Shown here one piece after another: positions 8,170 to 40,606 of a stretch of DNA of 47,442 bases. Under the pieces are notes generated by a model. The model ran no database searches, was not told the origin of the DNA, and worked only from the letters and a program-made list of their open reading frames with translations. A program made the position numbers and the translations under genes. The DNA lies in NCBI GenBank assembly GCA_903925005.1, contig CAIYDX010000130.1, forward strand, positions 1 through 47,442, read 5' to 3'. This stretch comes from an uncultured Geobacteraceae bacterium. Its GTDB lineage: Bacteria; Desulfobacterota; Desulfuromonadia; Geobacterales; Pseudopelobacteraceae. The stretch's first letter is position 1; each line of letters begins with the position of its first letter.

Positions 8170-8185
8170 TGGCACGGCCTGTGCA
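8170..8185 (+). promoter_or_regulatory. Sigma-54 promoter of glnK-amtB
   Basis: TGGCACGGCCTGTGCA has an exact -24 TGGCAC and a -12 GTGCA with the invariant GC at the right spacing. It lies 66 bases before glnK. Sigma-54 control of glnK-amtB by nitrogen status is the usual arrangement. Confidence 0.85.
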
Positions 8186-8247: not shown

Positions 8248-8589
<342 letters not shown>

Positions 8590-24838: not shown

Positions 24839-25231
24839 TTAGGACTCGTCGTCCAGAAATGATGGTGAAACTCCCTTGTTCATCGCTTTTCGCAGCCAGG
24901 GGGGGGGATTGCCGCGCAATACCTCCTGAAAGCGGGCCAATGTTTCTTTCAGGTTAACCTCGCTATTGGTCTTCATCGGGTGGATCTTCTGCGCTATCAG
25001 CTTAGCCGCCGCCGGCCCGCCGATCTGCATGGTATAGACAATGGCGCAGTCTGAAAGCAGCTGTGCCCGGGCAGCTATACGATCTTCCTCATCGCCGCCA
25101 TGTTCGCCGACGCTGACAGCTTCAAGGAACGCGGCTTCATCCGGCCCGACCTCCCAGATATGGAAACTCTGACACTGCCCAAAATGTTGATCGATGGTTT
25201 CGCCGGTTGATGTGGTAAATGCGATTTTCAT
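24839..25231 (-). CDS. nifX: NifX
   Basis: 130 residues: MKIAFTTSTGETIDQHFGQC start with the conserved HFGQCQSFHIWEV block, then MQIGGPAAAKLIAQKIHPMK, and a tail (EVLRGNPPPWLRKAM) typical of true NifX. It carries NifB-co/FeMo-co precursors between NifB and NifEN. The start at 25231 follows GGGGGAATGT; an apparently longer frame upstream runs through the leader terminator and is not coding. First gene of the unit nifX-fdxB-nifX2-draT, with a sigma-54 promoter at 25375-25390 and an attenuator at 25271-25316. Confidence 0.92.
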   Translation of the reverse strand: MKIAFTTSTGETIDQHFGQCQSFHIWEVGPDEAAFLEAVSVGEHGGDEEDRIAARAQLLSDCAIVYTMQIGGPAAAKLIAQKIHPMKTNSEVNLKETLARFQEVLRGNPPPWLRKAMNKGVSPSFLDDES

Positions 25232-25270
25232 ACATTCCCCCTGTTTTGACTTTATGACTGATTCGGGCCG

Positions 25271-25316
25271 AAAAAAAACGGCGCCACTCCCCAGCTGGGG
25301 AATGGCGCCGTTGCCA
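25271..25316 (-). terminator. Leader attenuator of the nifX unit: terminator overlapped by an ANTAR-type hairpin
   Basis: A 16-bp stem (25297-25312 with 25277-25292, one G-T pair, loop of 4) followed by eight T on the minus strand is a very strong intrinsic terminator, placed between the sigma-54 promoter and nifX. Its 5' arm overlaps a small hairpin at 25303-25316: stem UGGC/GCCA with hexaloop AACGGC (A1, G4). The two folds exclude one another, which is the ANTAR antitermination design. Confidence 0.85.
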
Positions 25317-25374
25317 AAATTCGTGAGAACCCATCTCACCATGTTTGTAGATTCGCAGCCTTACCATGCTGATT

Positions 25375-25390
25375 AGCACAGGGTGTGCCA
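25375..25390 (-). promoter_or_regulatory. Sigma-54 promoter of the nifX-fdxB-nifX2-draT unit
   Basis: Minus strand TGGCACACCCTGTGCT: exact -24 element and GC of the -12 element at correct spacing, about 145 bases before the nifX start. Confidence 0.88.
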
Positions 25391-25546
25391 ATATCTATAA
25401 CTCTGATATTATTGAATATTTGCTATCACTTATCTGATAAATCGGTGGCCTGCAGGGAACAGAGCCCAATTATTAACCACCTGAACGATGTACTGCCTAT
25501 TGAACGCCCATCTGTACGTGCCGTGAAGAATGATGAAATCTGCCGT

Positions 25547-28306
25547 TTAATTATGCGCCAGCTTCTGCTCCTCTTTCGCATTGGCCTGAAACAGGTTGGC
25601 GGTCTCGAACACCAGATTCAGTGTCCCGCGATAACCGGCCCACATCTTCTGATGGGCGCCCAGACGGTCGAACACCGGCAGCCCTGCACGCAAATGAGCA
25701 CCGATCTTTAGTTTCGCCGCTGCCTGTCTGCCGTTTGAATTAGCTACGATCAGGTCGGCCCCTTTTGCCGCCTCTTCCAGATCCTCCAAATCCCCGACAA
25801 ACACATTGCCGCACGGCAGAGCGTCCAGCCCGCGGGTGCGGGTGGCGGAGAGCGCGGCCTGAATATCGCACCCCATCCCTGCTAGGAAACGGGTCAATGT
25901 TTTCAGATTATCCGACTCCAAAGCGATGGCAACCTTTTTGGTGCCAAACTGGTAATGGCTGTCCACCATGGCATCCATCAGGCGGCTCCGCCAGCGACGG
26001 TGCTTCTCCGGAATCGGGCGGCCACTGATGGCGGAGAGGGCTTCCATAAAACGGTCGGTCTCAGCCAGACCGGTCAGCGAGGTGAAACCATACGCCGGGA
26101 TTCCGAACTTGTCCTTCAGCTTGAGCGCCGCCTTGGCCAGACTGTCTCCGACATACAGCGTTGCAACACTGCGCCCTCCCTTTCTGATTTCACTTACCGG
26201 AATACCGCCGGTTGAGAGCGGCGACACCACATCGTCGATATGACCGTCCATCGCGTTGGAAATGTCCGGAATCGTCAGCACCGTCAGGCCGAATGACTCG
26301 ATCAGCTCTTTCAGCTCCTCCACATCAGCCGGGGTAAGGTGCGCGCCGGGGAGGAAGTTGACCTGATCGGCAACGGTATCGCCCCCTTCCGGCAGCGTGA
26401 AGACAATCGCCTCCACCGCTGCGGCGTACCCTTCCTGCAGCGACCCGCAGTAATCGGGCGTTGCGGCATGGATGATCGGGATGTGCGCGACTTCCGGATG
26501 CTCCTGACGGAAATGCACGATGGCGCTCTGTACGTCATCCCCCATTGTTTCGGTCAGGCCCGAGGTCATGACGCCAACCACTTCCGGATGAAACTTCTCG
26601 ATCACCCGCCCGATACCCTTTTTCAGATTGTCCCAGCCGCCGAAGATGGCGGTATCTTCGCTCATTGCGGTGGCGTTGAGGGCTATCGACTCCTTGTAGT
26701 GCCTTGAGAGCTGCAGCCGGATAAATGTCGAGCATCCCTGGGCTCCGTGCAGCAGGCCGAGCATATTGTCGATCCCCAGGTAGGCCATGGTGGCTCCGAG
26801 CGCGGGCGAATTCTTCTGCGGATTGACCGTGGCGGCCTTGGTGGAAACCTTGACCCGCGAAGCCGAAATATCCTCTGCCAGAAAAGCCTCGGCATGACCG
26901 GCTGTTGCCGCCAAATCCGCCGCCAGCTGTTCGTCGCTTTTATCCCACGGCGCGGGAGCGTTCAAGGTCGGCCAGATCGGGTTGTTGACCGTCATGTCCA
27001 ACTGTTTGGCAAAGGTCACCATCCCCTCATATCCGGCATACGGATGGGAGCGGCCATGATTGATATCCAGAAAGGGGGTCTTGGTCTTCAGTGCCAGGAA
27101 TTTGGTCTTGCCCCCCGCCACGATCAAATCCGGCATCTTTTCGCGCATGACCGCCAACAGTCCGGCTGTCGAGGTGTCCTCAATGATTTTGGCATCGGCA
27201 TGCATCAGCCCCTTCATGCGGTAGAAATCTTCCAGAGTCGAATTCTGCGTGCCGGCAGCAAGGATTTCCACACCCAGTTCACGCAGTGAGTTAACCATCG
27301 ACCAGGTTTTGACTCCACCGGTGAAGAGCACCGCCCGTTTCCCTTCGAGACGCTCGCGGTAGGGGGCGATAGCCGCCCGGCATTTTGCCTCTTCCTCTGC
27401 GATCAGCCGTTCCACCCGATCCTGCATGACCCGCTTTTCCAGGCCGTTGACGATATCGTCCAGTTCGCGGGCTATATCACGAAGCGCTTTGGCCGTATCG
27501 GTCATGCCGTAAAAAGACTCCTCCAGATACGGCATGCCGTAGGTTTTCTGCATCTTCTTGGCAAGGTTGGTCAGCGACTTGGAGCAGATGATTATGTTCA
27601 GCTTGGCCCGGTGGGCGTAGCGCAGCTCCTCGAATTTGGCATCACCGCTGAAGCAGGAGAGGATCTGGATTCCCAGGCGGTCAAAGAGCGGCAGCATCCC
27701 CCAAAGGTCGCCGGCGATGTTGTATTCACCGATCAGGTTGATCGGATATTCCCCCAGGACCGGCGGCTCGGTAGTGCCGATCACGTACTTGAAGAGGATT
27801 TCGCCGGCCAGGCGATTGCCGATATTCTTGTCGCCGATGAAGCCGGGAGTATTCACCGGAATGATCGGGATTGCGACTTTTTTTGACGCAGCCGAGCAGA
27901 CCGACTCCACATCGTCGCCGGTCATGGCGGTTACGCAGGTGGCATAGACAAAGATGGCTTTGGCCTGGTCCTTATACCGCTCCGCCAGATCGATGATCGC
28001 CTTGTAGAGCTTCTTCTCGCCGCCGAAAATGACGTCATTCTCCAGCATCTCGGTGGTAAAGCCGCGCCGGTAAAGCTGCGCATCCGACGAGCGGGCGCCG
28101 CGGTTGTCCCAAGAGTTGCCGGCACAGGCTATCGGTCCATGCACCAGATGGATGACGTCAGTGATCGGCATCAATACGACCCGGGCGCCGTCATAGGCGC
28201 AGGAGCGTTCAGTCCCTTCGCCCGGCTCGGATTTCTTGCAGAACTTGGGGGCACCCTTGTCATGAGTGTCGCAGTTATCGGTATCGTACCAGTCGGGCTT
28301 TGCCAT
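25547..28306 (-). CDS. nifEN: NifE-NifN fusion, FeMo-cofactor scaffold
   Basis: 919 residues. The NifE half (to about 480) has the cluster cysteines in ERSCAYDG, GPIACAGNSWDNR and YATCVTAMTGDD. The NifN half (from about 488) begins near NPQKNSPALGATMAYLGID with GAQGCSTFIRLQL. The normal NifEN heterotetramer matures NifB-co to FeMo-co before transfer to NifDK; here both subunits are one chain, as known in Geobacter. The start ATG at 28306 follows CCGAGGATACGATC; the longer open frame upstream is the attenuator leader. It has its own sigma-54 promoter (28438-28453). No clear terminator was found between it and the nifX promoter. Confidence 0.96.
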   Translation of the reverse strand: MAKPDWYDTDNCDTHDKGAPKFCKKSEPGEGTERSCAYDGARVVLMPITDVIHLVHGPIACAGNSWDNRGARSSDAQLYRRGFTTEMLENDVIFGGEKKLYKAIIDLAERYKDQAKAIFVYATCVTAMTGDDVESVCSAASKKVAIPIIPVNTPGFIGDKNIGNRLAGEILFKYVIGTTEPPVLGEYPINLIGEYNIAGDLWGMLPLFDRLGIQILSCFSGDAKFEELRYAHRAKLNIIICSKSLTNLAKKMQKTYGMPYLEESFYGMTDTAKALRDIARELDDIVNGLEKRVMQDRVERLIAEEEAKCRAAIAPYRERLEGKRAVLFTGGVKTWSMVNSLRELGVEILAAGTQNSTLEDFYRMKGLMHADAKIIEDTSTAGLLAVMREKMPDLIVAGGKTKFLALKTKTPFLDINHGRSHPYAGYEGMVTFAKQLDMTVNNPIWPTLNAPAPWDKSDEQLAADLAATAGHAEAFLAEDISASRVKVSTKAATVNPQKNSPALGATMAYLGIDNMLGLLHGAQGCSTFIRLQLSRHYKESIALNATAMSEDTAIFGGWDNLKKGIGRVIEKFHPEVVGVMTSGLTETMGDDVQSAIVHFRQEHPEVAHIPIIHAATPDYCGSLQEGYAAAVEAIVFTLPEGGDTVADQVNFLPGAHLTPADVEELKELIESFGLTVLTIPDISNAMDGHIDDVVSPLSTGGIPVSEIRKGGRSVATLYVGDSLAKAALKLKDKFGIPAYGFTSLTGLAETDRFMEALSAISGRPIPEKHRRWRSRLMDAMVDSHYQFGTKKVAIALESDNLKTLTRFLAGMGCDIQAALSATRTRGLDALPCGNVFVGDLEDLEEAAKGADLIVANSNGRQAAAKLKIGAHLRAGLPVFDRLGAHQKMWAGYRGTLNLVFETANLFQANAKEEQKLAHN

Positions 28307-28353
28307 GATCGTATCCTCGGATTGCTCTTCGTCTATTTGTGAAGCCGGTAACG

Positions 28354-28404
28354 AAAAACGGCGTTCCATATCATGCAAGATGAATTTGGATGGCGCCGTT
28401 GCCA
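28354..28404 (-). terminator. Leader attenuator of nifEN with ANTAR-type hairpin
   Basis: Stem AACGGCG (28394-28400) with CGCCGTT (28357-28363) and an inner TCAT/ATGA pairing, then five T on the minus strand. Its 5' arm overlaps GGC-AACGGC-GCC (28392-28403), extendable to a five-pair stem around a hexaloop with A1 and G4. Same arrangement as in the nifX leader, but a weaker terminator. Confidence 0.75.
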
Positions 28405-28437
28405 CAGTAACAAAATCTGCTGTTGTGTAGTTGTATT

Positions 28438-28453
28438 AGCATGGGGTGTGCCA
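28438..28453 (-). promoter_or_regulatory. Sigma-54 promoter of nifEN
   Basis: Minus strand TGGCACACCCCATGCT, 132 bases before the nifEN start. Confidence 0.88.
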
Positions 28454-28579
28454 ATACTACGTAATGCTATAATATACCGATAATATTCAGTATTACATCT
28501 TTTTACGTACGTCCATCATACTGAACTGCCTAATTTATGAGCATTAAATTGTTCACAAATATATTTGATTCGATACCGA

Positions 28580-29854
28580 TTATCCGAAACGATAGATCTG
28601 AGTGCCATTCTCGTAGAGTTCGATAGGGCCGTCCTGGGAAACCTTGATAACCTTGCCGAAATGTGAAGCAGCGCAAGAGGCCGTGGTCCTTCCGCCACCG
28701 GCCACCATTTCCCGTGCGTGGGACGTATCGATGATGAAACCGGTATCAACCAATTTTCCCTTCGAGTTGAACACGGTAATGCCGTCAGATGACAAAATCC
28801 TGAGGAGCGTTCCTGACTGCTTCAGTTCGCCGACACCCTTCTTTTTCACCCGCTCAATCAGCAGGCGGCCTATCGGATCGGCACCACCGACAGCCCCTTT
28901 TTTCAGCTCGGCAAGTTTCCGCCCACTGCCGCCGTAGATCATGACAACGGTGCCATAGCGCATCTTGGAGAGCGCATAGAGCGTCCAGATAAGATCTTCC
29001 GCCGCCTCCGCCTCGATACAGTCCGACAAAAACGCCCGGAAGATATCCGGATCGAAGATGCTCCACACCCCTTTTCTCCGAACCATGATCCGGGCGGGGC
29101 TGGTGAGTACTTCTATATCCGAAGCCTCGTTCACCGTTACGGCAAATGCGCCCGCCCCGCTTCTCCTGATAAGAGAAAATATCTCCCGCTGAGTCTGTCG
29201 CTCCACCTCGTTCTGGAGAGCAGCGCCGGACAGCGTGACGATGCCGTTTACCTGCATCTGGATGCCGGCCAGAAAAAACAGGTTCGTGCCGTCGATAAAA
29301 CGATAAGTCAGGGGGTTGTCAAAAAAACCGGGGCCGATACTTTGTGAACTTTTCAGCGGCACCAGGGTATGTTTCCGCTGTTTCATCAGGTTACGGAGCT
29401 CTGTCGGGGTCGTGCGATGGATGATCACGCCGGTGGTGGCCGGCTTGCCTTCGTATTTCTGATAGGAAAGACTCTTTAGCAGTTGAATTAGCTGCTGAAT
29501 CGGCCAGAAGCCCTTGCGGTGATCCCCGCGCAGGGAACGGGCAACGGTGATGTCCATAATGGAGGCAACAAGAGCCGTCCTGAATTGTGCCGCATATCCC
29601 TCTTGCTTGAAGCCGCTGTATAGCATGGCAAATGCGGTCAGCAGTTCATCGCAGAACGACTCTTCAAGACGTGTGAACGGAATGCCTTTACGAGTTGCAC
29701 TGAACATGAACTCTCGTCCGTCCGTCACGACCGGAAGGGAAATAGTGAATACCTCATGGAGTGGACGTTCGGAAACCGGGGAAAGTACCACCTCGGCACC
29801 TCCAAGTAAGGAGCTGATGTTACCGCTCATCGCCTCAAAAATTGTCATCGGCAT
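28580..29854 (-). CDS. DisA-like (DAC/DACNV-type) nucleotide-sensor domain protein
   Basis: 424 residues, no membrane segment. The C-terminal part (about 295-424) resembles the diadenylate cyclase fold: SSDGITVFNSKGKLVDTGF (DGI at 357-359 in place of DGA) and GGGRTTASCAASHFGKVI (RTTAS at 389-393 where the cyclase has RHRAA). The altered RHR motif suggests nucleotide binding or sensing without cyclase activity; this matches the predicted DACNV sensor class. The N-terminal 290 residues are not recognised. It lies between nifEN and nifK but is separated from nifK by a strong terminator and has a sigma-70-like promoter (29890-29919), so it is probably expressed independently of nif induction. GTGGAGG precedes the ATG. 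Confidence 0.7.
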   Translation of the reverse strand: MPMTIFEAMSGNISSLLGGAEVVLSPVSERPLHEVFTISLPVVTDGREFMFSATRKGIPFTRLEESFCDELLTAFAMLYSGFKQEGYAAQFRTALVASIMDITVARSLRGDHRKGFWPIQQLIQLLKSLSYQKYEGKPATTGVIIHRTTPTELRNLMKQRKHTLVPLKSSQSIGPGFFDNPLTYRFIDGTNLFFLAGIQMQVNGIVTLSGAALQNEVERQTQREIFSLIRRSGAGAFAVTVNEASDIEVLTSPARIMVRRKGVWSIFDPDIFRAFLSDCIEAEAAEDLIWTLYALSKMRYGTVVMIYGGSGRKLAELKKGAVGGADPIGRLLIERVKKKGVGELKQSGTLLRILSSDGITVFNSKGKLVDTGFIIDTSHAREMVAGGGRTTASCAASHFGKVIKVSQDGPIELYENGTQIYRFG

Positions 29855-29889
29855 CGGGTTGGAACCTCCACGGGATAATATCCGTCAGC

Positions 29890-29919
29890 ACTATACTCTC
29901 CTGCCCTCGATGAATGCAA
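29890..29919 (-). promoter_or_regulatory. Possible sigma-70 promoter of the DAC-like gene
   Basis: Minus strand TTGCAT and TATAGT separated by 18 bases, about 35 bases before the start codon. Confidence 0.45.
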
Positions 29920-29934
29920 TCGGAGACAAGACGC

Positions 29935-29964
29935 AAAAAGGCGCACCACGTGAAACGGTGCGCC
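29935..29964 (-). terminator. Intrinsic terminator of nifHDK
   Basis: Minus strand GGCGCACC (29957-29964) pairs with GGTGCGCC (29940-29947), followed by five T. It lies 30 bases after the nifK stop. Confidence 0.9.
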
Positions 29965-29993
29965 CTTTAGACAGCAAAACATGTAAGTGAATA

Positions 29994-31463
29994 TTACCGC
30001 ATCAACTCAAAATACTGATCCTCACACGTCTCATCCTTGATATCGATAAACTTGTTGCAGATCTCGGTTACCATGTTGATCATACCCTGGTAGCCGATCA
30101 ATGGGTAGCGGTGCTTGTTGACCCGGTCGAATACCGGGAAACCGAAGCGGAACAGCGGTATTTTGGCGTCGCGGGTGGCGAATTTGCCGTGGCTGTCGCC
30201 GATAACGGCATCGACCGGATCGGTCATCAGCAGGCTGCGCAGATGCCAAAGATCCTTGTTCATGTAGATTTTGCCCTCCTTGCCGTACATAGAGGTATCA
30301 AGCAGCGCCTGTATTTCCTTCTCAACCTTCTTGCTGCCTCTGCTGCAAAGGATGTGATACGGAATGGCGCCCATTTCCAGGAGGAAGGAAACATAGCCCA
30401 TCAGATAATCCGGGTCGCCGTAGACGGCAAATTTCTTGCCGTGCATGTACTGGTGCGAATCGGTAATGGCATCAACAGCGCGGCCGCGCTCGTTTTTCAG
30501 TGAAGCAGGAACTTCCTTGCCGAACAGTTCAGCGACCTTCATGACGAAGGCATCGGTCTTTTCGATACCGATCGGCATCGGCATGGTGACATGCTTACCG
30601 GAGTAGTTGTCCTTGATCCAGCCGAAGGTCTTCGGTGTGGCATACGGACCGATGGCGATGGTGGCCTTGCCGTTGATTGAATCGGCGGCGTCTTCCAGTT
30701 TGGTGCCGCCGGCGTAGACATGATACGTGCCGTCTGCGGGTGAATCAAAAGTGTCGGAGATGTCAGCCAGCATCGTGTACGGAACGCCGAATTCCTTCAG
30801 AATTCGCTTGTACTCACGGTAGTCACCAGTATTGAAGTCGCAGCCGGCGATCAGGTTCAGCTTGCCGGTACAGCGTCCTTCAATCTGTTTTCCCTCGGTG
30901 AGGGTCTGCAGGATCGAAACCAGCATCGAGTCGTAGCCATGAATATGGGTGCCGTTGAAGCTGGGGGTGTTGGCGTAAGGAACCGGCATATCTTTGGGCA
31001 CGCAGTTCTTCTGTTTGGCGTTCTTGATAAAGGCGGTCAGGTCGTCACCGATAACTTCCGGCATGCAGGAGGTGAACACCGCAATCATCTTTGGTTTGTA
31101 GATGGCGTTGGCGTTTTCCAGACCTTCGTGGAGGTTGTTCTGCCCGCCGAACACCGCGCCGTCTTCCGTCATCGAATCGGATACCGCCGGGGCAGGCTCG
31201 CGGAAATGACGGTTCAACGTCGAGCGGTAGTAGGAAGCGCACCCCTGAGAACCATGAACGAAAGGAAGTGTCCCTTCAAAACCGTGGGCAGCCAACTGGG
31301 CTCCCAACGGCTGACAGGCGTGAACCGGGTTTATCACCAGCGCCTGACGGGCAAAGTTTTTCTCTTTATATTCTTCTGTGTTGATCCAGTTCTGAACCTT
31401 TTCAATCTCTTCAGGTGTGGTTTCAACAATCTTTTTGACTTCAAGTTCTAGTAAGTTTGACAT
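29994..31463 (-). CDS. nifK: Nitrogenase molybdenum-iron protein beta chain
   Basis: 489 residues. P-cluster cysteines: Cys50 in NPVHACQPLG, Cys75 in GSQGCASYY and Cys133 in FTSCMPEVIGDD, with the Ser just after the beta Cys95-equivalent region conserved in context. With NifD it forms the alpha2-beta2 dinitrogenase that reduces N2. It is shorter at the N-terminus than the Azotobacter protein, as in many anaerobes. GAGAGGAGATATACC precedes the ATG. Last gene of nifHDK, ended by the hairpin at 29935-29964. Confidence 0.98.
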   Translation of the reverse strand: MSNLLELEVKKIVETTPEEIEKVQNWINTEEYKEKNFARQALVINPVHACQPLGAQLAAHGFEGTLPFVHGSQGCASYYRSTLNRHFREPAPAVSDSMTEDGAVFGGQNNLHEGLENANAIYKPKMIAVFTSCMPEVIGDDLTAFIKNAKQKNCVPKDMPVPYANTPSFNGTHIHGYDSMLVSILQTLTEGKQIEGRCTGKLNLIAGCDFNTGDYREYKRILKEFGVPYTMLADISDTFDSPADGTYHVYAGGTKLEDAADSINGKATIAIGPYATPKTFGWIKDNYSGKHVTMPMPIGIEKTDAFVMKVAELFGKEVPASLKNERGRAVDAITDSHQYMHGKKFAVYGDPDYLMGYVSFLLEMGAIPYHILCSRGSKKVEKEIQALLDTSMYGKEGKIYMNKDLWHLRSLLMTDPVDAVIGDSHGKFATRDAKIPLFRFGFPVFDRVNKHRYPLIGYQGMINMVTEICNKFIDIKDETCEDQYFELMR

Positions 31464-31524
31464 GGTATATCTCCTCTCCGGATAGCAATCTCTATCACGG
31501 CAGATTTTGTAGTTTCCTTCCGAC

Positions 31525-32970: not shown

Positions 32971-33030
32971 AATATGTCTCCTGTTTTGGTGAGAGGCTCA
33001 ATCCAGCCTCTGCTTGAACCTGTTTGGATA

Positions 33031-33942
<912 letters not shown>

Positions 33943-33944
33943 TT

Positions 33945-33994
33945 AGTAAGTTAGAAATTTCTGCGTTCGTTGCAGAAAGTTTCGTGAACGAACT
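33945..33994 (-). repeat. Palindromic leader element, copy 2 (nifH leader)
   Basis: Transcript strand AGTTCGTTCACGAAAC ... TTTCTGC ... GCAGAAA ... ACTTACTAAAA; the TTTCTGC/GCAGAAA stem and GAAA/TTTC pair match copy 1. It lies after the attenuator and 45 bases before the nifH ATG. A separate 6-bp hairpin (GCTCAC/GTGAGC, 33917-33934) sits between it and the ribosome site. Confidence 0.65.
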
Positions 33995-34017
33995 ATTTTC
34001 TTTTGGTTAGGGGCAAC

Positions 34018-34055
34018 AAAAAAGACGCCCCGGTATTTCGGAGGCGCCATTGCCT
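34018..34055 (-). terminator. Leader attenuator of nifHDK with ANTAR-type hairpin
   Basis: Stem GCGCCTCCG with CGGGGCGT (one bulge) followed by six T on the minus strand. The 5' arm overlaps AGGC-AATGGC-GCCT (34042-34055), a four-pair stem with hexaloop AAUGGC (A1, G4). Same layout as in the nifX, nifEN and nifB leaders. Confidence 0.85.
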
Positions 34056-34106
34056 GAACAAACTTTTATGTAACAAATCGTACTGCATGCTGCTTGAATT
34101 CGATAA

Positions 34107-34122
34107 AGCATAGGACGTGCCA
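34107..34122 (-). promoter_or_regulatory. Sigma-54 promoter of nifHDK
   Basis: Minus strand TGGCACGTCCTATGCT, about 205 bases before nifH. I found no clear TGT-N10-ACA NifA site upstream. Confidence 0.9.
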
Positions 34123-34431
34123 AGTTAAATTTACTTTTAAATAACAGTATATTATAAATTTATGCCCAATAAATAAGCTGATTTTGAGGGGCACTTGGTG
34201 ACAGGGATGCGCCAGCAACTGAGGCAGATGCTGATAATTTAATCAGCCGGGCAGCAAACGGTACACAACCAGTTCAGGATAAATTATGGAATGGCTGTTT
34301 TTTTGATTCAGAACCGGCCACGAAGTTGCATATAGACGATATTCAGAACCGTGGAGCGTCTGCAAATGGAACCACTTGATCGAGACACTGCAAAGAAGCT
34401 GTTCAATCAGTAGCGAAAAGGAGACCTGACT
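34123..34431. other. Intergenic region between the nifH promoter and the FKBP gene
   Basis: About 310 bases without a convincing gene. The first 40 bases are AT-rich. Short frames are present but none has a ribosome site and a protein-like sequence. This is where the enhancer-binding site for nifH would be expected, but no known activator motif is recognisable by eye. AAAAGGAGACCTGACT before 34432 is the FKBP ribosome site. Confidence 0.4.
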
Positions 34432-34860
34432 ATGACTCAAGCAGCGATAGGCCGTACCGTCACTATCAGTTACATCGGCACACTTGACAACGGCAGAATA
34501 TTTCACAGCACCGAAGAGCAGGGTCCGTTGACGGTTACCATTGGAACCGACCAGCTTTTTCCGGCTTTGGAGCGGGCGATCGTCGGCATGCGCGCCGGGG
34601 AGGTGAAAAATATTGTGCTCTCCGCCGAAGAGGCATACGGTCCGCGCCGTCAGGAGAACATCATCCAGGTTCCACGACATACCTTTCCTGCCGGAAAAGA
34701 GATCATCGTTGGTCAGAAATTAAGCATCGAGTTCAAGGGTGGAGAATCACGGATAATGGTTGTAACCGCCGTTGGAGATGTGGAGGTGACACTGGATGGC
34801 AACCACCCGTTGGCAGGGTTGGAGTTGACTTTTGCTCTAAAGGTTGAACAGATGGAGTAA
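34432..34860 (+). CDS. FKBP-type (SlyD-like) peptidyl-prolyl isomerase
   Basis: 142 residues. GRTVTISYIGTLDNGRIFHS, the GMRAGEVKNIVLSAEEAYG block and the later insert-in-flap part (HTFPAGKEIIVGQ) fit the SlyD-like FKBP class. No signal peptide, so cytoplasmic. It probably helps fold proteins, perhaps nitrogenase; FKBP genes occur in other nif clusters, but the link here rests on position only. Unlike Escherichia coli SlyD it lacks the His-rich metal-binding tail. It is divergent from nifHDK and convergent with the macro-domain gene, 27 bases away. Confidence 0.88.
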   Translation: MTQAAIGRTVTISYIGTLDNGRIFHSTEEQGPLTVTIGTDQLFPALERAIVGMRAGEVKNIVLSAEEAYGPRRQENIIQVPRHTFPAGKEIIVGQKLSIEFKGGESRIMVVTAVGDVEVTLDGNHPLAGLELTFALKVEQME

Positions 34861-34887
34861 CCCTGAAAGGATTCTTCCTTAGCACAT

Positions 34888-35325
34888 CTAACTGTCTTCT
34901 TGACTGATTACAAGAAAGCGATGATCAAAATGTGTTTCAAGGATTGGCCGCACATCGTGCCACGCAAGACCACCGCCACCGCAGCCGGGGCGGGGCACGA
35001 CAATCCGCTGCCATCCTGAATGGTCCACCAGAAGCCGCAGTTCGTGCGCCGAACGGGAGATGATCCGCAAATCAGGCTGTGACCATGCAGTCTCTTCCAC
35101 CGGAAACGTGACGATACCGCACCCGAGGTCGAATACGACACTCCCCAGTTCTGCCAGCAACGCGCCTAATTTTTTATCAAGACCTGGAAAACGGAGCAGC
35201 GCCTGTTTCGCGACACCGCGCCCGAAGACCGCACGCCCATCCCTGGTCAGCGACCCGTTGGTGGTAATGACGGTGATCTCTCCCCGGCCTGCATACTCCC
35301 AGATGTCGCCTACCGTCTCAAACAT
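34888..35325 (-). CDS. Macro-domain (ADP-ribose-binding) protein, last in the nifB unit
   Basis: 145 residues, one domain. Macro-fold signatures: VITTNGSLTRDGRAVFGRG (about 19-37) with GVAKQALLRFP, the central FPVEETAW, and VPRPGCGGGGLAWHDVRPIL (110-129), which resembles the ligand loop of TARG1/ALC1-like macro domains. These bind ADP-ribose or hydrolyse ADP-ribosyl adducts. It overlaps the preceding 96-residue gene by 16 bases and is the end of the nifB-GNAT-nifV-HTH-unknown-macro unit, so it should be induced with nitrogen fixation. Together with draT and draG this suggests a role in NifH ADP-ribosylation or in clearing ADP-ribose; that role is inference. Catalysis cannot be confirmed from the motif alone. 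Confidence 0.75.
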   Translation of the reverse strand: MFETVGDIWEYAGRGEITVITTNGSLTRDGRAVFGRGVAKQALLRFPGLDKKLGALLAELGSVVFDLGCGIVTFPVEETAWSQPDLRIISRSAHELRLLVDHSGWQRIVVPRPGCGGGGLAWHDVRPILETHFDHRFLVISQEDS

Positions 35326-35600
35326 TCGACGGCCGATCCCCGCAGATAATCGAAGACCTCCCCCCTGGTGGTAATAAAACTCGGCATCACGTTGAGAATA
35401 TCCTCGATCAGATGCAGCACCTCGCCGTCAACGCTTTCCAACTCATTCATGACCGCTGACAGTATCGGCAGGATCTCGTAGAGGTCGTGACGGTTGAAGG
35501 GCGCGGGGTCGGGCAGGCCGGAAAACTTGGGTTCATCCCGATTGGCAACGTCACGCGGGTATCTGAATTTCAGGTCTGATGCTTTGACTATAAGTGCCAT
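35310..35600 (-). CDS. Uncharacterised 96-residue nif-linked protein
   Basis: Start at 35600 (GGGAGGTGTATC in front); MALIVKASDLKFRYPRDVAN. No family recognised, no signal peptide or membrane helix. The middle (HDLYEILPILSAVMNELESV and LHLIEDILNVM) is likely helical, and the N-terminus carries several charged/aromatic residues. It lies 14 bases after the HTH/Cys gene and overlaps the macro-domain gene by 16 bases, so the pair is translationally coupled and may act together. Confidence 0.8.
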   Translation of the reverse strand: MALIVKASDLKFRYPRDVANRDEPKFSGLPDPAPFNRHDLYEILPILSAVMNELESVDGEVLHLIEDILNVMPSFITTRGEVFDYLRGSAVECLRR

Positions 35601-35614
35601 GATACACCTCCCTG

Positions 35615-35848
35615 CTAATGTCCGCCGCAACCACTGCCACAGCCACCGCCGCAGCCCGGTTTGACAATGTCAGCCGCTTTCGGTTTGTCGCAGAGCTGCA
35701 GTGAAGAACGGTCCACATACCATGCATCATCTTCAACTTTTCCCTGCAATTCACTCTTCTTGAGCATCATCAGCACTCGCATTTCGGTTGTTTCCAGAAG
35801 TCGTGCCGCTTCAGCAATCGGTACAAATGAAGTTCCTGTATTGCACAT
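35615..35848 (-). CDS. Small HTH-like protein with a Cys/Gly-rich metal-binding-type tail
   Basis: 77 residues. Residues about 8-50 (FVPIAEAARLLETTEMRVLM, then WYVDRSSLQ) look like an excisionase/MerR-type winged helix. The tail GCGGGCGSGCGGH offers three cysteines and a terminal histidine, a plausible Fe-S or metal site. A metal- or redox-sensing regulator is possible but not shown. It lies 11 bases downstream of nifV in the nifB unit and uses a strong AAGGAGAGAACTT site. Genes of this kind are unfamiliar to me as part of nif operons. Confidence 0.75.
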   Translation of the reverse strand: MCNTGTSFVPIAEAARLLETTEMRVLMMLKKSELQGKVEDDAWYVDRSSLQLCDKPKAADIVKPGCGGGCGSGCGGH

Positions 35849-35859
35849 AAGTTCTCTCC

Positions 35860-37005
35860 TTAAGCTGCCTTTGGCAGCGTTTTATTCTCAAGATAAATTC
35901 CCATCAGTTCACAGTTTGTCAGATCCCTCTTGCGACGGCACGACATGGCTCGCGTCATTTCAAGTAACGGCACGGCCCGGATGCGGTCAACTGCGATACC
36001 CATGCTGCGATAACGCTCAATCAATCCGCCGGTGCCTGAATGCTTGCCGACCACTATACTGCGGGTCAAACCGACCTCGGCCGGGTCGAACCCTTCGTAA
36101 TTATGTGGATCCTTGATGACGCCGTCGGCATGCAGCCCCGATTCATGGGCAAAAACCCGTGAACCAACTACCGGTTTCGAAACTGACAGCGGTCGATGGG
36201 AAGCTTTGGCGACAAAGAGCGACATCTCCCTGAAACGGTGGGTGTCGATACCGGTTTCTATATTGCAGGCATGCTTGAGCCCCATCACCACCTCTTCAAG
36301 GGCGGCATTTCCAGCCCTTTCGCCAAGGCCGTTAATCGTGGTGTTGACAAACTTCGCGCCGGCGCGGATGCCGGCGATGGCGTTAGCGGTAGCCATTCCC
36401 AAATCATTGTGGGTATGCACCTCGATATCAACGTCGGGTACCGCCTGTCTTAGAAACGCCACTTTGTCGAACATCGTAAAAGGGTCCATGATACCGAGCG
36501 TATCGCAGAAACGGAAGCGGTCGCCACCCATGGCGCGAGTGATCTCCATCAGCTCCACCAGAAAAGTCATGTCCGCACGGCTGGCATCCTCGCCCCCGAC
36601 CGATACGTAGAGGTCATGCTGTTTGGCAAAACCGAGCGCGACTTTCAGCTGTTCCTTGACCGCTTCACGGTTTTTTCGCAGTTTATGGGCGATCATCTGA
36701 TCGGATACCGATAGCGAAATATCTACCGCCTGCACGCCACAGGCAATACTTGCCTTGATTTCAGGCAGCAGTGCCCGGTTCCAGGTAATCAGACGGGCGT
36801 TCAAACCCAGGTCGACCAAGGCGCGGATGGAATCCTGCTCTTCTTTTCCCATGGCCGGGATGCCGCACTCGATCTCCCCGACACCGATGGAGTCAAGCAT
36901 GCGGGCGATGGCAATCTTTTCCCGGCGGGAAAAAACCACGCCGGCGGTCTGTTCGCCGTCCCGCAGGGTGGTGTCGTCAATGATGATTGTCTGATTTGTA
37001 TTCAT
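35860..37005 (-). CDS. nifV: Homocitrate synthase NifV
   Basis: 381 residues from the ATG at 37005 (GGGAGGCGATC in front). DDTTLRDGEQTAGVVF, the metal-binding HTHNDLGMATAN and the GLGERAGNAALEEVVMGL block identify a DRE-TIM/HMGL-family homocitrate synthase, making the organic acid of FeMo-cofactor from acetyl-CoA and 2-oxoglutarate. It ends with the expected short C-terminus, with no LeuA regulatory domain, as in NifV. Twenty-seven bases after the GNAT gene. Confidence 0.96.
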   Translation of the reverse strand: MNTNQTIIIDDTTLRDGEQTAGVVFSRREKIAIARMLDSIGVGEIECGIPAMGKEEQDSIRALVDLGLNARLITWNRALLPEIKASIACGVQAVDISLSVSDQMIAHKLRKNREAVKEQLKVALGFAKQHDLYVSVGGEDASRADMTFLVELMEITRAMGGDRFRFCDTLGIMDPFTMFDKVAFLRQAVPDVDIEVHTHNDLGMATANAIAGIRAGAKFVNTTINGLGERAGNAALEEVVMGLKHACNIETGIDTHRFREMSLFVAKASHRPLSVSKPVVGSRVFAHESGLHADGVIKDPHNYEGFDPAEVGLTRSIVVGKHSGTGGLIERYRSMGIAVDRIRAVPLLEMTRAMSCRRKRDLTNCELMGIYLENKTLPKAA

Positions 37006-37032
37006 GATCGCCTCCCGATGACCCACGTATTT

Positions 37033-37857
37033 CTACCCGCTACTCCCCATCGTCGCCAGCCCATAGATCAACTCCGACCGATAATCAGGTTTCATGCCCG
37101 CATACATCAGCAGATTACTGCCGGCAATCTTCATGTTTCTGCGGTTAAAGAGTCGAAGTGCCGTGCGATTCGAAGTTGGAGCGTCAACTAATACTTTTGT
37201 TCCCATAGGTATGGTTCTGAATGCATCTTCAAACAGACGTTCTGCAGTCGTGTCATCCAACGCTGAAAATGGCCCTATCTGTACGGAATTGCCGCATGGC
37301 TGCATAACTATGAATCCTGATCCATTTTGAAGGAGAGTGCCGCGACGCGAGGTTGCATCGAGCAGCGCAGTACGGCGGTCACTCCAGGCATGAGTGTCGA
37401 TATCATATGACACGCTTGCCAAACCGGCGCATTTCTCCGGCGCTGAATCGGGAGCGTGCTGTTGCCGTCCCGTTCCGACCCAGCGGATAATCGTGTCAAT
37501 GCCGGTAAAACCGTGCTTTTCATAAAGCGGGGCACCTGATTTCGAGGCGGTCAGCCAGACTGTCTCTGCTCCTGACGACTGCAACGCCTCGACTGCGTTT
37601 CTGAACAACCCTGCCCCGATCCCCCTGCCACGAAATTGCTCGGCAACAATCAGATTGCCGATCCAGCCGCTCCGTTCATGGAGCAATGCGGTCACAAAAC
37701 CGACGGTTTCTCCGTTATCCGCTCGTGCTGCAAAACATCCCTGTGGGAAATCGGATAGTAGAAACTCGAACTCCCAAGGTTCCGCCACCCAGTTTTCCTC
37801 TGTCGCAAGCTTCAGGAATGGCGCCATGTCCTCCATGCGGAAAGACTCGATTATCAT
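37033..37857 (-). CDS. Two-domain GNAT acetyltransferase linked to nifB
   Basis: 274 residues. The N-terminal GNAT domain (about 1-130) has the acetyl-CoA loop QFRGRGIGAGLF and LYEKHGFTGIDT. The second half (about 150-274) is the GNAT-related C-terminal region seen in YitH/HolE-type proteins. The start ATG (37857) overlaps the nifB stop as ATGA, so the two are translationally coupled. The substrate is unknown; acetylation of a Nif protein or of a small molecule such as homocitrate-related metabolites is speculation. Confidence 0.85.
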   Translation of the reverse strand: MIIESFRMEDMAPFLKLATEENWVAEPWEFEFLLSDFPQGCFAARADNGETVGFVTALLHERSGWIGNLIVAEQFRGRGIGAGLFRNAVEALQSSGAETVWLTASKSGAPLYEKHGFTGIDTIIRWVGTGRQQHAPDSAPEKCAGLASVSYDIDTHAWSDRRTALLDATSRRGTLLQNGSGFIVMQPCGNSVQIGPFSALDDTTAERLFEDAFRTIPMGTKVLVDAPTSNRTALRLFNRRNMKIAGSNLLMYAGMKPDYRSELIYGLATMGSSG

Positions 37858-38723
37858 GGTGTGGGACAGGCCGATTCGGCTATGGTCATGTTCAGATCCT
37901 TGCCGATCAGACCTATGGCGTCGGCCCGGCACTGCTTGCAGTGAGCAAACTGGCCGATGATCCCCTCGTTGGCCTTCCTTATTCCTGTTATATACTCTTC
38001 GCTGGGGGGCGAAATGTGAGCCAGCTCGGCCTGGGGAATTATCGGCATCACGTTCATGACAAACGCTCCTAATTCCTTGACCCGTGCTGCAATCAGGGGA
38101 ATTTGCGCATCGTTGATCCCTGGTGTCAGAACGGAATTAATTTTGATCGTCATCCCCAACTCTCCGGCGCGCTTTACCCCTTCAAGCTGGTTGGCAATCA
38201 GGATTGTTGCCGCCTCTACTCCGGTGTAATGCCTGCCATGATAGATGATGTGACGATAAATCTGCGCACCGACTTCCGGATCGATTGCGTTAATCGTCAC
38301 TGTCAGGCTGTGGAGACCTAACTCGTAGAGCCGGTCGATTGATTCGGGAAGCAGCAGGCCGTTGGTGCTCATGCAGAGCATCAGGTGAGGGAATTCCTGC
38401 TTGACCAGCCGGAACGTCTCGAAAGTCTCTTCATTGGCCAGCGGATCTCCGGGGCCGGCGATGCCGACAACCTTGATAATCGGCCCGACTACCGGGCTGG
38501 CCATGACCTCGCGTACTTTGATGATCGCCTCTTCGGGAGTCAGCAGTCTGCTGGTCACTCCGGGGCGGGACTCGTTGGCGCAGTCGTGCTTTCGAGAGCA
38601 GTAGCCGCACTTGATATTGCATTTGGGCGCGACAGCCAGATGCATCCGCCCGTTCTTATGGTGGTTGCCGCCGAAGCAGGGATGCCCCTGAATCTTGTTC
38701 TTCATTTCACATGCAGTTGCCAT
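37854..38723 (-). CDS. nifB: NifB, radical SAM FeMo-cofactor core synthase (short form)
   Basis: 289 residues. Radical SAM CX3CX2C at Cys35, Cys39 and Cys42 (APKCNIKCGYCSRK), plus HPCFGGNHHKNGRMH upstream, and the C-terminal cysteines CKQCRADAIG for the additional clusters. It builds NifB-co, the 8Fe-9S-C core, from two 4Fe-4S units and SAM. Typical proteobacterial NifB (near 500 residues) has a C-terminal NifX domain that is missing here; separate NifX proteins at 24110 and 24839 fill in. The ATG at 38723 follows TTGGGAGGTAGATAATC. First gene of the unit, under sigma-54 and the attenuator leader. Confidence 0.97.
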   Translation of the reverse strand: MATACEMKNKIQGHPCFGGNHHKNGRMHLAVAPKCNIKCGYCSRKHDCANESRPGVTSRLLTPEEAIIKVREVMASPVVGPIIKVVGIAGPGDPLANEETFETFRLVKQEFPHLMLCMSTNGLLLPESIDRLYELGLHSLTVTINAIDPEVGAQIYRHIIYHGRHYTGVEAATILIANQLEGVKRAGELGMTIKINSVLTPGINDAQIPLIAARVKELGAFVMNVMPIIPQAELAHISPPSEEYITGIRKANEGIIGQFAHCKQCRADAIGLIGKDLNMTIAESACPTP

Positions 38724-38744
38724 GATTATCTACCTCCCAAAATG

Positions 38745-38784
38745 AAAAATGCCCGCGGGAGGGAATCCCACGGGCATCGTTGCC
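38745..38784 (-). terminator. Leader attenuator of the nifB unit with ANTAR-type hairpin
   Basis: Stem ATGCCCGTGGG (38767-38777) with CCCGCGGGCAT (38749-38759), then T-run of five on the minus strand. The 5' arm overlaps GGC-AACGAT-GCC (38773-38784), hexaloop AACGAU with A1 and G4. Only 21 bases separate the T-run end from the nifB ATG, so read-through must be controlled here. Confidence 0.87.
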
Positions 38785-38801
38785 GGTACTGACACTGTTA
38801 C

Positions 38802-38817
38802 AGCATAGAATGTGCCA
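38802..38817 (-). promoter_or_regulatory. Sigma-54 promoter of the nifB unit
   Basis: Minus strand TGGCACATTCTATGCT, 79 bases before nifB. Confidence 0.88.
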
Positions 38818-38828
38818 TTATTAAAAAA

Positions 38829-39008
38829 TTTGCCACGGAGGCACGGAGACACTGAGTGAAACAGGATAAAAACGCCTGACTTTAATTAACTAAAGGATGA
38901 TGAAATCAACATTTGACATAATTGTTTGTATCAATTTGCATTATATTTGTGCAGTCAGAGTGGTTTATGTATTGCATGTACTCCGTGACGCTGCGTCTCT
39001 GTGGCAAA
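38829..39008. repeat. Inverted repeat element upstream of draG
   Basis: Left arm TTTGCCACGGAGGCACGGAG (from 38829) mirrors CTCCGTGACGCTGCGTCTCT (38981-39000) followed by GTGGCAAA. This type of GCCACGGAGxCACGGAG/CTCTGTGGCAAA repeat is common between genes in many bacterial genomes. It spans the space between the nifB promoter and draG and ends 12 bases before the draG start, so it could carry the draG promoter. Confidence 0.6.
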
Positions 39009-39019
39009 AGGAATTTCAT

Positions 39020-39925
39020 ATGTTCAGCAAGTACAACCTCGAAGAAATCCGCAATCATGCCCGTGCCGCCTTCATCGGCATGGCGATCGGTGATGCTCTG
39101 GGTGCCACGGTCGAGTTCATGACCGCATCCGAAATTGCCGCAAAATACGGCACCTTCCGGGAGATTATCGGCGGCGGCTGGTTGCGGCTGAAGCCGGGAC
39201 AGGTGACTGACGATACCGAGATGGCGCTCTGTATTGCCCGCGCTATTGTAAAAAACCAGACCTGGTCGCTGGAGGCGGTTGCCGACAACTTTGCCGCATG
39301 GCTCAAATCGCGTCCGGTCGATTGCGGCGACACCTGTCGTAAGGGGATCCGCGCCTACCTTCTGCATGGACGTCTGGAATCGCCGCCAAACGAATGGGAT
39401 GCCGGTAACGGTGCTGCCATGCGCCTCCTGCCGGCGGCTCTTTTTTCGCTCCCCGATGAAGTGCTGCTGGCAAAGTATATACTTGAGCAAGCCCACATTA
39501 CTCATAACAATCCGGTTTCGGATGCCGCCTGCCTTTGCCTTGGTCAGCTTCTGCACATGGCGCTCTGCGGGGCCGAAAAAAGCCGCCTGCGCCGCCATGT
39601 GGATGGGCTGACGGCCAGGTTCCCAACCTTTGTCTTTGAGCCGTATCGCGGTCTGGCGACAGGATATGTCGTAGATACCATGCAGACCGTGTTTCATTGG
39701 TTTTTTCGCGGAAGAAGCTTTGAAGAATGTCTGGTGGGGACAGTCAATCAAGGTGGCGATGCCGATACAACCGGTGCCATCTGCGGAATGCTGGCAGGTG
39801 CCTATTATGGCATGGATTCAATTCCGAAACGATGGCTGAAGAAGATGGACGGCAGGGTAATTGCCGAGATAGAGGTTATGGTTGATCACTTGATTGCGGC
39901 AAGTCCGGTTGGAAGGGCTTTTTAG
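39020..39925 (+). CDS. draG: DraG, ADP-ribosyl-dinitrogenase-reductase glycohydrolase
   Basis: 301 residues from the ATG at 39020 (CAAAAGGAATTTCAT upstream); the longer open frame lies in the repeat. AAFIGMAIGDALGATVEFM, VTDDTEMALCIARA and the C-terminal GGDADTTGAICGMLAGAYYG supply the Asp/Thr ligands of the di-manganese site of the ADP-ribosylglycohydrolase family. It removes ADP-ribose from NifH Arg99, reactivating nitrogenase. It is not in an operon with draT; it is encoded 15 kb away, on the opposite strand, without a recognisable sigma-54 promoter, so it may be constitutive. In related organisms PII proteins and AmtB control its location. Confidence 0.93.
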   Translation: MFSKYNLEEIRNHARAAFIGMAIGDALGATVEFMTASEIAAKYGTFREIIGGGWLRLKPGQVTDDTEMALCIARAIVKNQTWSLEAVADNFAAWLKSRPVDCGDTCRKGIRAYLLHGRLESPPNEWDAGNGAAMRLLPAALFSLPDEVLLAKYILEQAHITHNNPVSDAACLCLGQLLHMALCGAEKSRLRRHVDGLTARFPTFVFEPYRGLATGYVVDTMQTVFHWFFRGRSFEECLVGTVNQGGDADTTGAICGMLAGAYYGMDSIPKRWLKKMDGRVIAEIEVMVDHLIAASPVGRAF

Positions 39926-39930
39926 GGGCA

Positions 39931-39983
39931 AGGGGCAAGGGCGGAGGATAGCAAGACCAAGCTTTTGGCCTTTCCTTGCCCCT
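39931..39983. terminator. Convergent hairpin between draG and the ANTAR regulator
   Basis: AGGGGCAAGG (39931-39940) pairs with CCTTGCCCCT (39974-39983); an overlapping second copy of the left arm starts at 39924. No T-run, so its terminator role is uncertain. The GGGGCAAGG unit looks like a repeat. Confidence 0.5.
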
Positions 39984-39996
39984 TGACCCTGCAGTT

Positions 39997-40563
39997 TTAC
40001 CCTTCTTTCAAAATCCTGTCCGCAACCTGCCGCAATGTTTTGCGTTTGTCCATCGCATCCTTCTGCATGATTCGATAAGCCTCGGCTTCCGGCACGCGGT
40101 TCTTTTCCATCACGAGACCCTTGGCTTTTTCAATGATTTTGCGATTCTCGATAAGTTCGCGCAGATCATCGATTTTTTCTTTCAGGTTTTCAACCTCTTC
40201 AACATGATGCAGAGCAATTTCTATGGCCGGCAAAAGATCCTGCTGACGGAGGGGTTTGGTTAAATAAGCGGCAATTCCGTTTGCCGATGCCCGTTTTACA
40301 GTCGCACCGTCACAGGCGCTTGTCAGCAGCATGATCGGGATTTTCAGTTTTTTCCTGATCTCTACCGCCGCGGTTATCCCGTCCATGCCGGGCATGGCAA
40401 CATCCAGAATCGCCATGTCCGGGAAACATCCCAAAGCCATTTCCACGGCCTTTGCGCCGTCTCCACACTCCAGAATTTCATCGAAGCCGAGATCGACCAG
40501 CATGCTTTTCAGGCTCGCTCTTATTAACGGTTCGTCGTCACAAATCAGTATGGATTTACTCAT
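39997..40563 (-). CDS. gnfR: Response regulator with ANTAR RNA-binding domain (GnfR-like nif antiterminator)
   Basis: 188 residues. Receiver domain 1-120 with phospho-acceptor Asp54 (AILDVAMPGMDG) and Asp9/Asp10. A short helical coiled region (VEEVENLKEKIDDLREL) leads to an ANTAR domain (about 128-185: IIEKAKGLVMEKNRVPEAEA, then RIMQKDAMDKRKTLRQVADR). Phosphorylated ANTAR proteins bind paired RNA hairpins with A1-G4 hexaloops and prevent terminator formation. In Geobacter sulfurreducens GnfR is such a regulator of nif genes. All four nif leaders in this window have terminator/hairpin pairs fitting its target. It has a sigma-54 promoter of its own without attenuator. Cognate kinase not certain. 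Confidence 0.92.
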   Translation of the reverse strand: MSKSILICDDEPLIRASLKSMLVDLGFDEILECGDGAKAVEMALGCFPDMAILDVAMPGMDGITAAVEIRKKLKIPIMLLTSACDGATVKRASANGIAAYLTKPLRQQDLLPAIEIALHHVEEVENLKEKIDDLRELIENRKIIEKAKGLVMEKNRVPEAEAYRIMQKDAMDKRKTLRQVADRILKEG

Positions 40564-40590
40564 GGTCGCTTTCCTCCGTACAAAAGGACT

Positions 40591-40606
40591 AGCATGAGGT
40601 GTGCCA
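40591..40606 (-). promoter_or_regulatory. Sigma-54 promoter of the ANTAR regulator
   Basis: Minus strand TGGCACACCTCATGCT, 27 bases before the ATG. The leader is too short for an attenuator: TACGGAGGAAAGCGACC lies directly in front of the start. Confidence 0.88.

Follow-up and report, generated by a model that had tools for sequence, protein, structure and literature searches.

We analysed a stretch of 47,442 nucleotides (contig CAIYDX010000130.1, 'the window') from an uncultured Geobacteraceae bacterium, in which the leaders upstream of nifX, nifEN, nifH and nifB are probably transcription attenuators controlled by an ANTAR-domain protein, each running on a single RNA hexaloop. The hexaloop (here called P2) is a GGC/GCC stem that closes a six-nucleotide loop with A at position 1 and G at position 4 ('A1/G4'); the upstream partner hairpin, P1, is missing. 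At the level of sequence, the promoter, the hexaloop, the overlapping terminator, their conservation, the absence of P1 and the intact RNA contacts of the ANTAR regulator are all in place. Somewhat less firmly, we consider it likely that the entire family to which this bacterium belongs runs ANTAR antitermination from one hexaloop, with P1 dispensable in nature and either lost from its nif leaders or never present in them.

The nif genes lie in a row at 24.8–40.6 kb on the minus strand, comprising nifX, a fused nifEN, nifK, nifD, nifH, nifV, nifB and a gene for a receiver-ANTAR regulator (nifK and nifD being named by their position in the nifHDK row rather than by a family-library run). The sigma54 −24/−12 pattern TGGCAC-N6-TGC is present at the leaders, and its extended form TGGCAC-N6-TGCT occurs without mismatch at five sites in the window, all on the minus strand and belonging to nifX, nifEN, nifH, nifB and the ANTAR gene; when up to one mismatch was allowed, a scan of the window gave nine matches against 3.1 expected. 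Transcription at such promoters begins 12 nt after the C of TGC, and the start (+1) of each leader was predicted from the promoter match by this rule. The hexaloop motif GGCAAYGRYGCC is found in exactly four copies in the 47 kb, one in each of the four leaders and nowhere else, and with one mismatch yields 12 matches against 2.8 expected. The initial annotation had proposed that each of the four genes is preceded by a TGGCAC promoter and a terminator, and that the 5′ arm of each terminator overlaps GGC-AAYGRY-GCC. Both proposals held: the promoter matches are exact, and the terminators and their overlap with the motif were recovered by terminator scan or folding. The 5′ arm of each terminator includes the GCC arm of P2 together with loop positions 4–6 (nifH and nifB) or the entire loop (nifX and nifEN), so that the P2 and terminator folds would be mutually exclusive; none of the four terminators extends into the 5′ GGC arm.

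We examined the same elements in the 76 genomes of the window's family (f1) and in sister families of the same order (f2–f4), the order sample amounting to 141 genomes. The leader searches fixed the GGC/GCC stem and used the reversed pattern as a control. A promoter followed by an A1/G4 hexaloop at 10–40 nt was found in 54 of the 76 family genomes (with four matches for the control), and at 41–71 nt in 61 of the 76 (two for the control). Leaving the loop letters free at 10–40 nt returned 138 matches against 58 for the control, and 95 of the 138 were A1/G4. Seven promoter-plus-hexaloop matches were judged to be chance and left out of the fetched set, and the sister-family matches were fetched in part (53 automatic loci and 60 regions). 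A U-run filter then reduced 172 family matches to 165 leaders (7 dropped) and 116 sister matches to 102 (14 dropped); the filter is crude, in that real-looking nifB leaders (L139 and L140) failed an earlier version while at least two members of the 165 (L055 and L134) look like chance matches. By downstream gene the 165 family leaders divide into nifB (53), nifH (53), nifEN (27), nifX (17), nifV (9) and others (6).

A test set that was blind to the RNA consisted of 95 loci picked by their ANTAR protein alone. An A1/G4 hexaloop with a U run was present in 30 of 31 distinct nifB leaders and in 18 of 18 nifH leaders at these loci, which bears out conservation of the hexaloop in relatives, a point on which the earlier proposal had been staked in advance. 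The sole nifB exception (L360) keeps the loop and has GTT in place of GCC. The hexaloop was also seen in 5 of 17 nifV leaders and in neither the one nifEN nor the one nifX leader (both from L369); at L344, L372 and the nifEN region of L369 the miss arose because the estimated start codon truncated the region, and many of the remaining nifV genes have coding sequence directly before them. An alignment of 33 of the 51 distinct nifB leader sequences of the family (those with long leaders and those of genus g7 being left out) has an invariant GGCAA outside the 13-bp terminator helix. The search itself had fixed GGC and A1 in these sequences; it had not fixed the second loop position (A2), which is A in 162 of all 165 family leaders. 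The terminator helix of nifB covaries, with five pairs changed on both sides, a value above all 500 shuffles.

The search for P1 covered A1/G4 hexaloops with a stem of at least 4 bp in the RNA from the predicted start minus 3 nt (the start being set by the 12-nt rule given above) up to P2. None of the four window leaders contains one. Across the window's family P1 was found in 3 of 165 leaders (1.57 expected from shuffled sequences), whereas the sister families have it in 47 of 102 examined leaders against 1.39 expected (nifB 13/24, nifH 5/11, and 29/38 in a class without a nif match, whose inspected ORFs are for the most part porin-like). Sister-family nifV (0/20), nifEN (0/6) and nifX (0/3) leaders likewise lack P1, indicating that single-hexaloop leaders exist order-wide; in the window's family they are, as judged by this search, essentially the only type. 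Leader length is not the reason, since a count limited to distinct leaders that have 20 nt or more ahead of P2 still finds the hairpin in just 3 of 111 in the family (1.5 expected) against 46 of 84 in the sister families (1.4 expected). In 47 of the 165 family leaders, 41 of them among the 53 nifB leaders, fewer than 15 nt precede P2, and no P1 would be possible if transcription starts as predicted. Short P1-less nifB leaders are also found in two f4 genomes (G100 and G102, genus g20).

Relaxing the definition of P1 did not recover it. In the 111 distinct family leaders, none of the loop types counted before P2 (A1/G4, R1/G4, N1/G4 and other hexaloops, pentaloops and heptaloops) went outside the range of 100 shuffles (for pentaloop stems, 29 of 111 against a shuffled mean of 22.8 and a maximum of 31), and loops without G4, pentaloops and heptaloops stayed within range in family and sister groups alike. 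Folding of the region before P2, in leaders of at least 25 nt, gave median z values of −0.02 to 0.55 for the family's nifB, nifEN, nifX and nifH leaders, which marks them as unstructured, and −2.34 (nifB) and −1.49 (nifH) for the structured leaders of the sister families. We found no motif replacing P1 among the top 6-mers of the nifH, nifEN and nifX pre-P2 regions, all of which are within shuffle range; some 6-mers of the nifB leaders exceed the shuffles, and those nifB leaders are closely related. P1 covariation on A1 is inflated, the aligned regions having been chosen for pairing, and the shuffle test is the fair one.

The initial annotation had doubted that a second hairpin was clear in all leaders and had named GTGAGA/TCTCAC in nifX as a strong candidate. 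The doubt was justified and can be sharpened, as P1 is absent from the family rather than merely unclear, and the candidate itself was rejected: the stem is stable, but its loop has 5 nt in place of an A1/G4 hexaloop, and none of the other 16 nifX leaders listed shares it, one of them (L154) folding a different stem before P2. A nifEN stem, AACAG-CAGATT-TTGTT, was also discarded since its hexaloop lacks A1/G4.

Linkers between P1 and P2 in the sister families measure 6–12 nt in nifB, 7–23 nt in nifH and 12–21 nt in a porin-like class; the short linker has no counterpart in the window's family because there is no P1 there. The porin-like class is a sixth class of leader, with promoter, P1, P2 and terminator, located before genes for secreted porin-like proteins of ∼243–289 amino acids (at loci that include L198, L200, L202, L205, L214, L217 and L264). 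Its linkers reach beyond the range of Enterococcus faecalis, and the one protein of this class that was tested had no Pfam match.

The GnfR-like ANTAR regulator that had been placed at 39997 was confirmed by matches to PF00072 and PF03861. It aligns to the EutV chain (6wsh) over residues 4–185. The EutV study (PMC8934654) gives the RNA-contact residues as Arg142, Lys143, Lys147, Lys149, Tyr164 and Met172; these correspond to R141, K142, K146, K148, Y163 and M171 of the window's protein, in which all six contacts are intact. The phosphorylation residues D9, D10, D54, T81 and K103 are all present as well. Together with the conservation of the loop, the EutV-type contacts support the earlier suggestion that the A1/G4 hexaloop follows the ANTAR target rule. 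Among 58 family regulators K142, K148 and M171 never vary, R141 is found in 56, position 163 is Tyr in 51 and Phe in 7, and position 146 is Lys in 51 and Arg in 6.

An ANTAR gene was detected in 129 of the 141 genomes of the order and is the only one in 122 of the 129, which makes the pairing of regulator and leader mostly unambiguous. By hand count, with every match taken as it stood, the leader pattern was matched in 123 of these 129 genomes, and 7 of the 12 genomes in which no ANTAR gene was detected also have a match (the sole match of genome G063 looks like coding sequence). No sensor kinase (GnfL) lies directly beside the ANTAR gene among the open reading frames (ORFs) scanned, and a crude motif scan of nine relative loci, run without a positive control, also found none. 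A histidine kinase of 269 amino acids with HisKA and HATPase domains (22343–23152, plus strand) adjoins draT and is a possible partner of the ANTAR regulator.

Position 163 differs between the families, being Tyr in 45 of 46 ortholog-like family regulators and Phe in 30 of 31 sister proteins. In EutV the corresponding residue, Tyr164, forms a bond through its hydroxyl with the phosphate at loop base 3 (PMC8934654). The single sister-family protein with Tyr163 (L228, from a second ANTAR gene of genome G094) shares 85% identity with the regulator of the window, and its gene lies ∼1 kb from a P1-less nifB leader of the short type of the window's family, which suggests that regulator and leader were probably transferred jointly. 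As a cause of P1 loss Tyr163 does not hold strictly, since 6 of 12 divergent family regulators have Phe and yet the g7 nifB leaders counted also lack P1. Nor is it a strict correlate, given the P1-less nifB leaders of G100 and G102 (with Phe in 30 of the 31 sister regulators examined) and given that EutV has Tyr yet uses P1. We keep it as a lead, in that it may reflect better P2 binding accompanying P1 loss. The 12 divergent regulators (11 from genus g7 and one from g9: L131–L134, L136, L138–L142, L191 and L192) are 29–42% identical to the window's protein. All of them lack one or more of D9, D10 and D54, with D54 changed to Glu in 5 of the 12, and they are probably pseudo-receivers that are not phosphorylated.

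Taken together, these features suggest the following mechanism. A sigma54 promoter would initiate each leader transcript, and by default the leader RNA would fold the intrinsic terminator, halting transcription before the nif gene. The GnfR-like protein, presumably phosphorylated and dimeric (its receiver residues being intact), would grip the GGC-AAnGnn-GCC hexaloop through its ANTAR domain as the RNA leaves the polymerase; the P2 stem, so held, would keep the terminator 5′ arm occupied and permit read-through. In the window's family the switch would run on P2 alone, without an upstream P1, and at nifB the hexaloop would be almost the first thing transcribed. The regulator gene, with the same type of promoter and no terminator, would complete a feed-forward circuit. 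At 29 relative loci, as at 40591–40606 (minus strand) in the window, the promoter of the ANTAR gene is of the same type as those of its targets and is not followed by a GGC-N6-GCC hexaloop; the gene starts no more than ∼60 nt from its own promoter, leaving a terminator little room.

The switch as such is already known, since GnfR antitermination was reportedly published in 2010 and a regulon in Pelobacter carbinolicus was predicted in 2012. Ueki and Lovley (Nucleic Acids Research (NAR), 2010) are said to have described antitermination of nif genes by GnfL/GnfR in Geobacter sulfurreducens, reportedly with a REC-ANTAR regulator, nif targets in which promoters are followed by terminators, and activation of the regulator by a master system. 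By that account, the architecture of the regulator, the kind of target gene and the promoter–terminator layout of that system are the same as in the window. Within the order sampled here, sister families f2–f4 keep P1 at many nifB and nifH leaders and the window's family does not. The single-hexaloop form as a family rule appears to be new: we found none described in the literature surveyed, which covered few subscription papers and did not include the 2010 study.

The ANTAR nitrogenase regulon predicted in P. carbinolicus, with three transcriptional units (Ramesh et al. 2012, PMC3369931), likewise has its targets at nitrogenase units, but the model, as given there, demands two hairpins and would be expected to miss the window's leaders. 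NasR/nasF and AmiR/amiE resemble the window in leader attenuation by an ANTAR protein via A1/G4 hexaloops; they differ in that P1 was the first essential element found there, whereas it is absent in the window's family (PMC3369936). EutV/eutP of E. faecalis shares the A1/G4 hexaloop, a stem that overlaps the terminator 5′ arm, the REC-ANTAR architecture and the conserved contacts, but requires P1 and a short linker (5–12 nt), and the window leaders have no P1. As this defining part was tested for and is absent, the window leaders would represent a variant of the known ANTAR switch.

Several observations weigh against a switch that runs on P2 alone. A single hexaloop contradicts the published model, because EutV antitermination needs P1 and a short linker: deletion of P1 from eutP lowered inducibility, a broken P1 stem prevented induction, and induction also fell drastically when the linker was 3 or 14 nt long (PMC3369931), while lengthening the linker by 20 nt abolished antitermination in vitro (PMC8934654). 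Walshe et al. conclude that termination is averted only if the two loops are encountered one after the other, place single hexaloop sites where the polymerase imposes no time constraint, and leave single-hexaloop function for further work (PMC8934654). The same study finds that the EutV dimer binds one hexaloop and that a single hexaloop is the minimal binding motif, so that the structure fits a single-hexaloop grip. Since the ANTAR antiterminators studied use both P1 and P2 (PMC3369931, PMC3369936, PMC8934654), the leaders described here might be standard dual-hexaloop leaders in which P1 is degenerate, is not a hexaloop, or lies on a longer transcript whose start precedes the sigma54 site. 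The presence of P1 in the sister families favours this, as do the stems folded by some long family leaders (window nifX, L091 and L154) and the slight elevation of pentaloop stems over their shuffled mean. Moreover, the +1 is a prediction from the promoter match, a start further upstream could add sequence, and A1/G4 stems in the 100 nt upstream of the promoter (16 of 165 leaders; shuffled mean 10.4) reach the maximum of 60 shuffles (16). Those stems are scattered and mostly unrelated, however, with 3 in the 53 nifB leaders, and except in one pair of nifEN relatives neither their position nor their sequence is conserved; there may be a small excess, with nothing conserved among them. With all loop types before P2 within shuffle range, a median fold z near 0, no 6-mer over shuffle range in nifH, nifEN and nifX, and no room for P1 in most nifB leaders, we regard a hidden P1 as rather unlikely.

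It is also conceivable that genuine terminators are here under the control of some other factor (translation-sensed attenuation, a small molecule or a different RNA-binding protein) and that the hexaloop is a by-product of a GGCGCC-rich terminator arm. Loop positions 4–6 and the GCC are part of that arm, and the U run of some leaders, nifX and nifEN among them, can base-pair with A1-A2, so the terminator alone could explain conservation of the loop; the conservation of A1 and A2 is not purely a hexaloop signal, and we cut back our use of A2 as a terminator-independent one. The GGC/GCC stem of P2 is almost invariant and has no covariation support in the family leaders, because it hardly varies, partly as the search fixed it. 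When the nifB P2 is folded in isolation, ViennaRNA adds a pair and so predicts a tetraloop, and energies alone do not favour the nifB hexaloop. The pairing of leaders with ANTAR genes also has exceptions. Six of the seven genomes with a leader match and no detected ANTAR gene are incomplete (52–90%), and the seventh (G087, 99% complete), whose nifEN leader L204 has a hexaloop and U run, is either a true exception or an assembly gap. Two further ANTAR genes are present elsewhere in the window's own assembly (contigs C412 and C132), 84% and 50% identical to the window's; one of these may be foreign, the assembly having 6.16% contamination. Control by another factor would nevertheless leave unexplained why the GGC arm, which is outside the terminator, is found in nearly every nifB and nifH leader chosen blind to the RNA, and why the second A1/G4 hexaloop of the sister families has quite different stem sequences. 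An ANTAR gene accompanies most genomes of the order, a nifB start was located in 39 of the 95 ANTAR-centred loci, and no Rfam family reached its gathering score anywhere in the window (with only weak chance matches around the nifB leader); we consider such a factor improbable. A further alternative, that GnfR does recognise the leader but acts otherwise after initiation (on translation or mRNA stability) beside a constitutive terminator, has a precedent in Mycobacterium tuberculosis, where ANTAR stem-loops overlapping ribosome-binding sites are not always dual-motif (as cited in PMC8934654). In all four window leaders, and in the relatives' leaders among those listed, P2 overlaps the terminator arm before the U run and not the ribosome-binding site, and a constitutive terminator before nifH and nifB would leave these genes nearly silent, which makes this explanation very improbable indeed. 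We therefore favour ANTAR-controlled attenuation from a single hexaloop.

The positions of these features are collected in Table 1. The listed ORF starts of nifX, nifEN and nifH fall within the leaders, and the ATG codons given in the table, chosen from family matches and sequence, are likely the real starts. Downstream of nifB, on the same strand, a GNAT ORF is followed by nifV. A further TGGCAC-N6-TGC site at 8170–8185 (plus strand), without a hexaloop, precedes an ORF (8251–8589) that we take to encode a P-II protein, and then an ammonium transporter.

Table 1. Promoters, leader elements and genes of the nif row in the window
Feature	Position	Strand	Evidence and remarks
nifX sigma54-type promoter, TGGCACACCCTGTGCT	25375..25390	-	Exact match; predicted +1 25364
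nifX P2 hexaloop, GGC-AACGGC-GCC	25304..25315	-	Exact motif match; fold
nifX intrinsic terminator, 16 bp	25277..25312	-	Terminator scan; 5′ arm overlaps P2, then U run
nifX	24839..25231	-	TIGR02663, 140.6 bits; likely ATG 25231; listed ORF start 25342
nifEN sigma54-type promoter	28438..28453	-	Exact match; predicted +1 28427
nifEN P2 hexaloop, GGC-AACGGC-GCC	28392..28403	-	Exact motif match; fold
nifEN terminator, AACGGCG/CGCCGTT stem	∼28357..28400	-	Folding; missed by terminator scan; overlaps P2
Fused nifEN	25547..28306	-	NF011047, 1711 bits over residues 34-952 of listed ORF; likely ATG 28306
nifH sigma54-type promoter	34107..34122	-	Exact match; predicted +1 34096
nifH P2 hexaloop, GGC-AATGGC-GCC	34043..34054	-	Exact motif match; fold
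nifH terminator	∼34024..34048	-	Folding; scan saw 5-bp core only; overlaps P2
nifH	33031..33900	-	TIGR01287, 468.7 bits; likely ATG 33900
nifB sigma54-type promoter	38802..38817	-	Exact match; predicted +1 38791, ∼7 nt before P2
nifB P2 hexaloop, GGC-AACGAT-GCC	38773..38784	-	Exact motif match; 5′ end of predicted transcript
nifB terminator, 13 bp	38748..38778	-	Terminator scan; 5′ arm overlaps P2
nifB	37854..38723	-	TIGR01290, 336.6 bits, slightly below cut-off of 343.65
GnfR-like regulator, receiver and ANTAR	39997..40563	-	PF00072, 82.1 bits; PF03861, 66 bits
ANTAR gene sigma54-type promoter	40591..40606	-	Exact match; without hexaloop or terminator

Conserved leaders without P1, in genomes that mostly hold one ANTAR gene, would offer a direct test of what P1 is for. 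The sister families provide a matched comparison for such a test, with the same genes and the same regulator family both with and without P1. Search models built on two hairpins would miss regulons of this kind, and ANTAR control may be undercounted.

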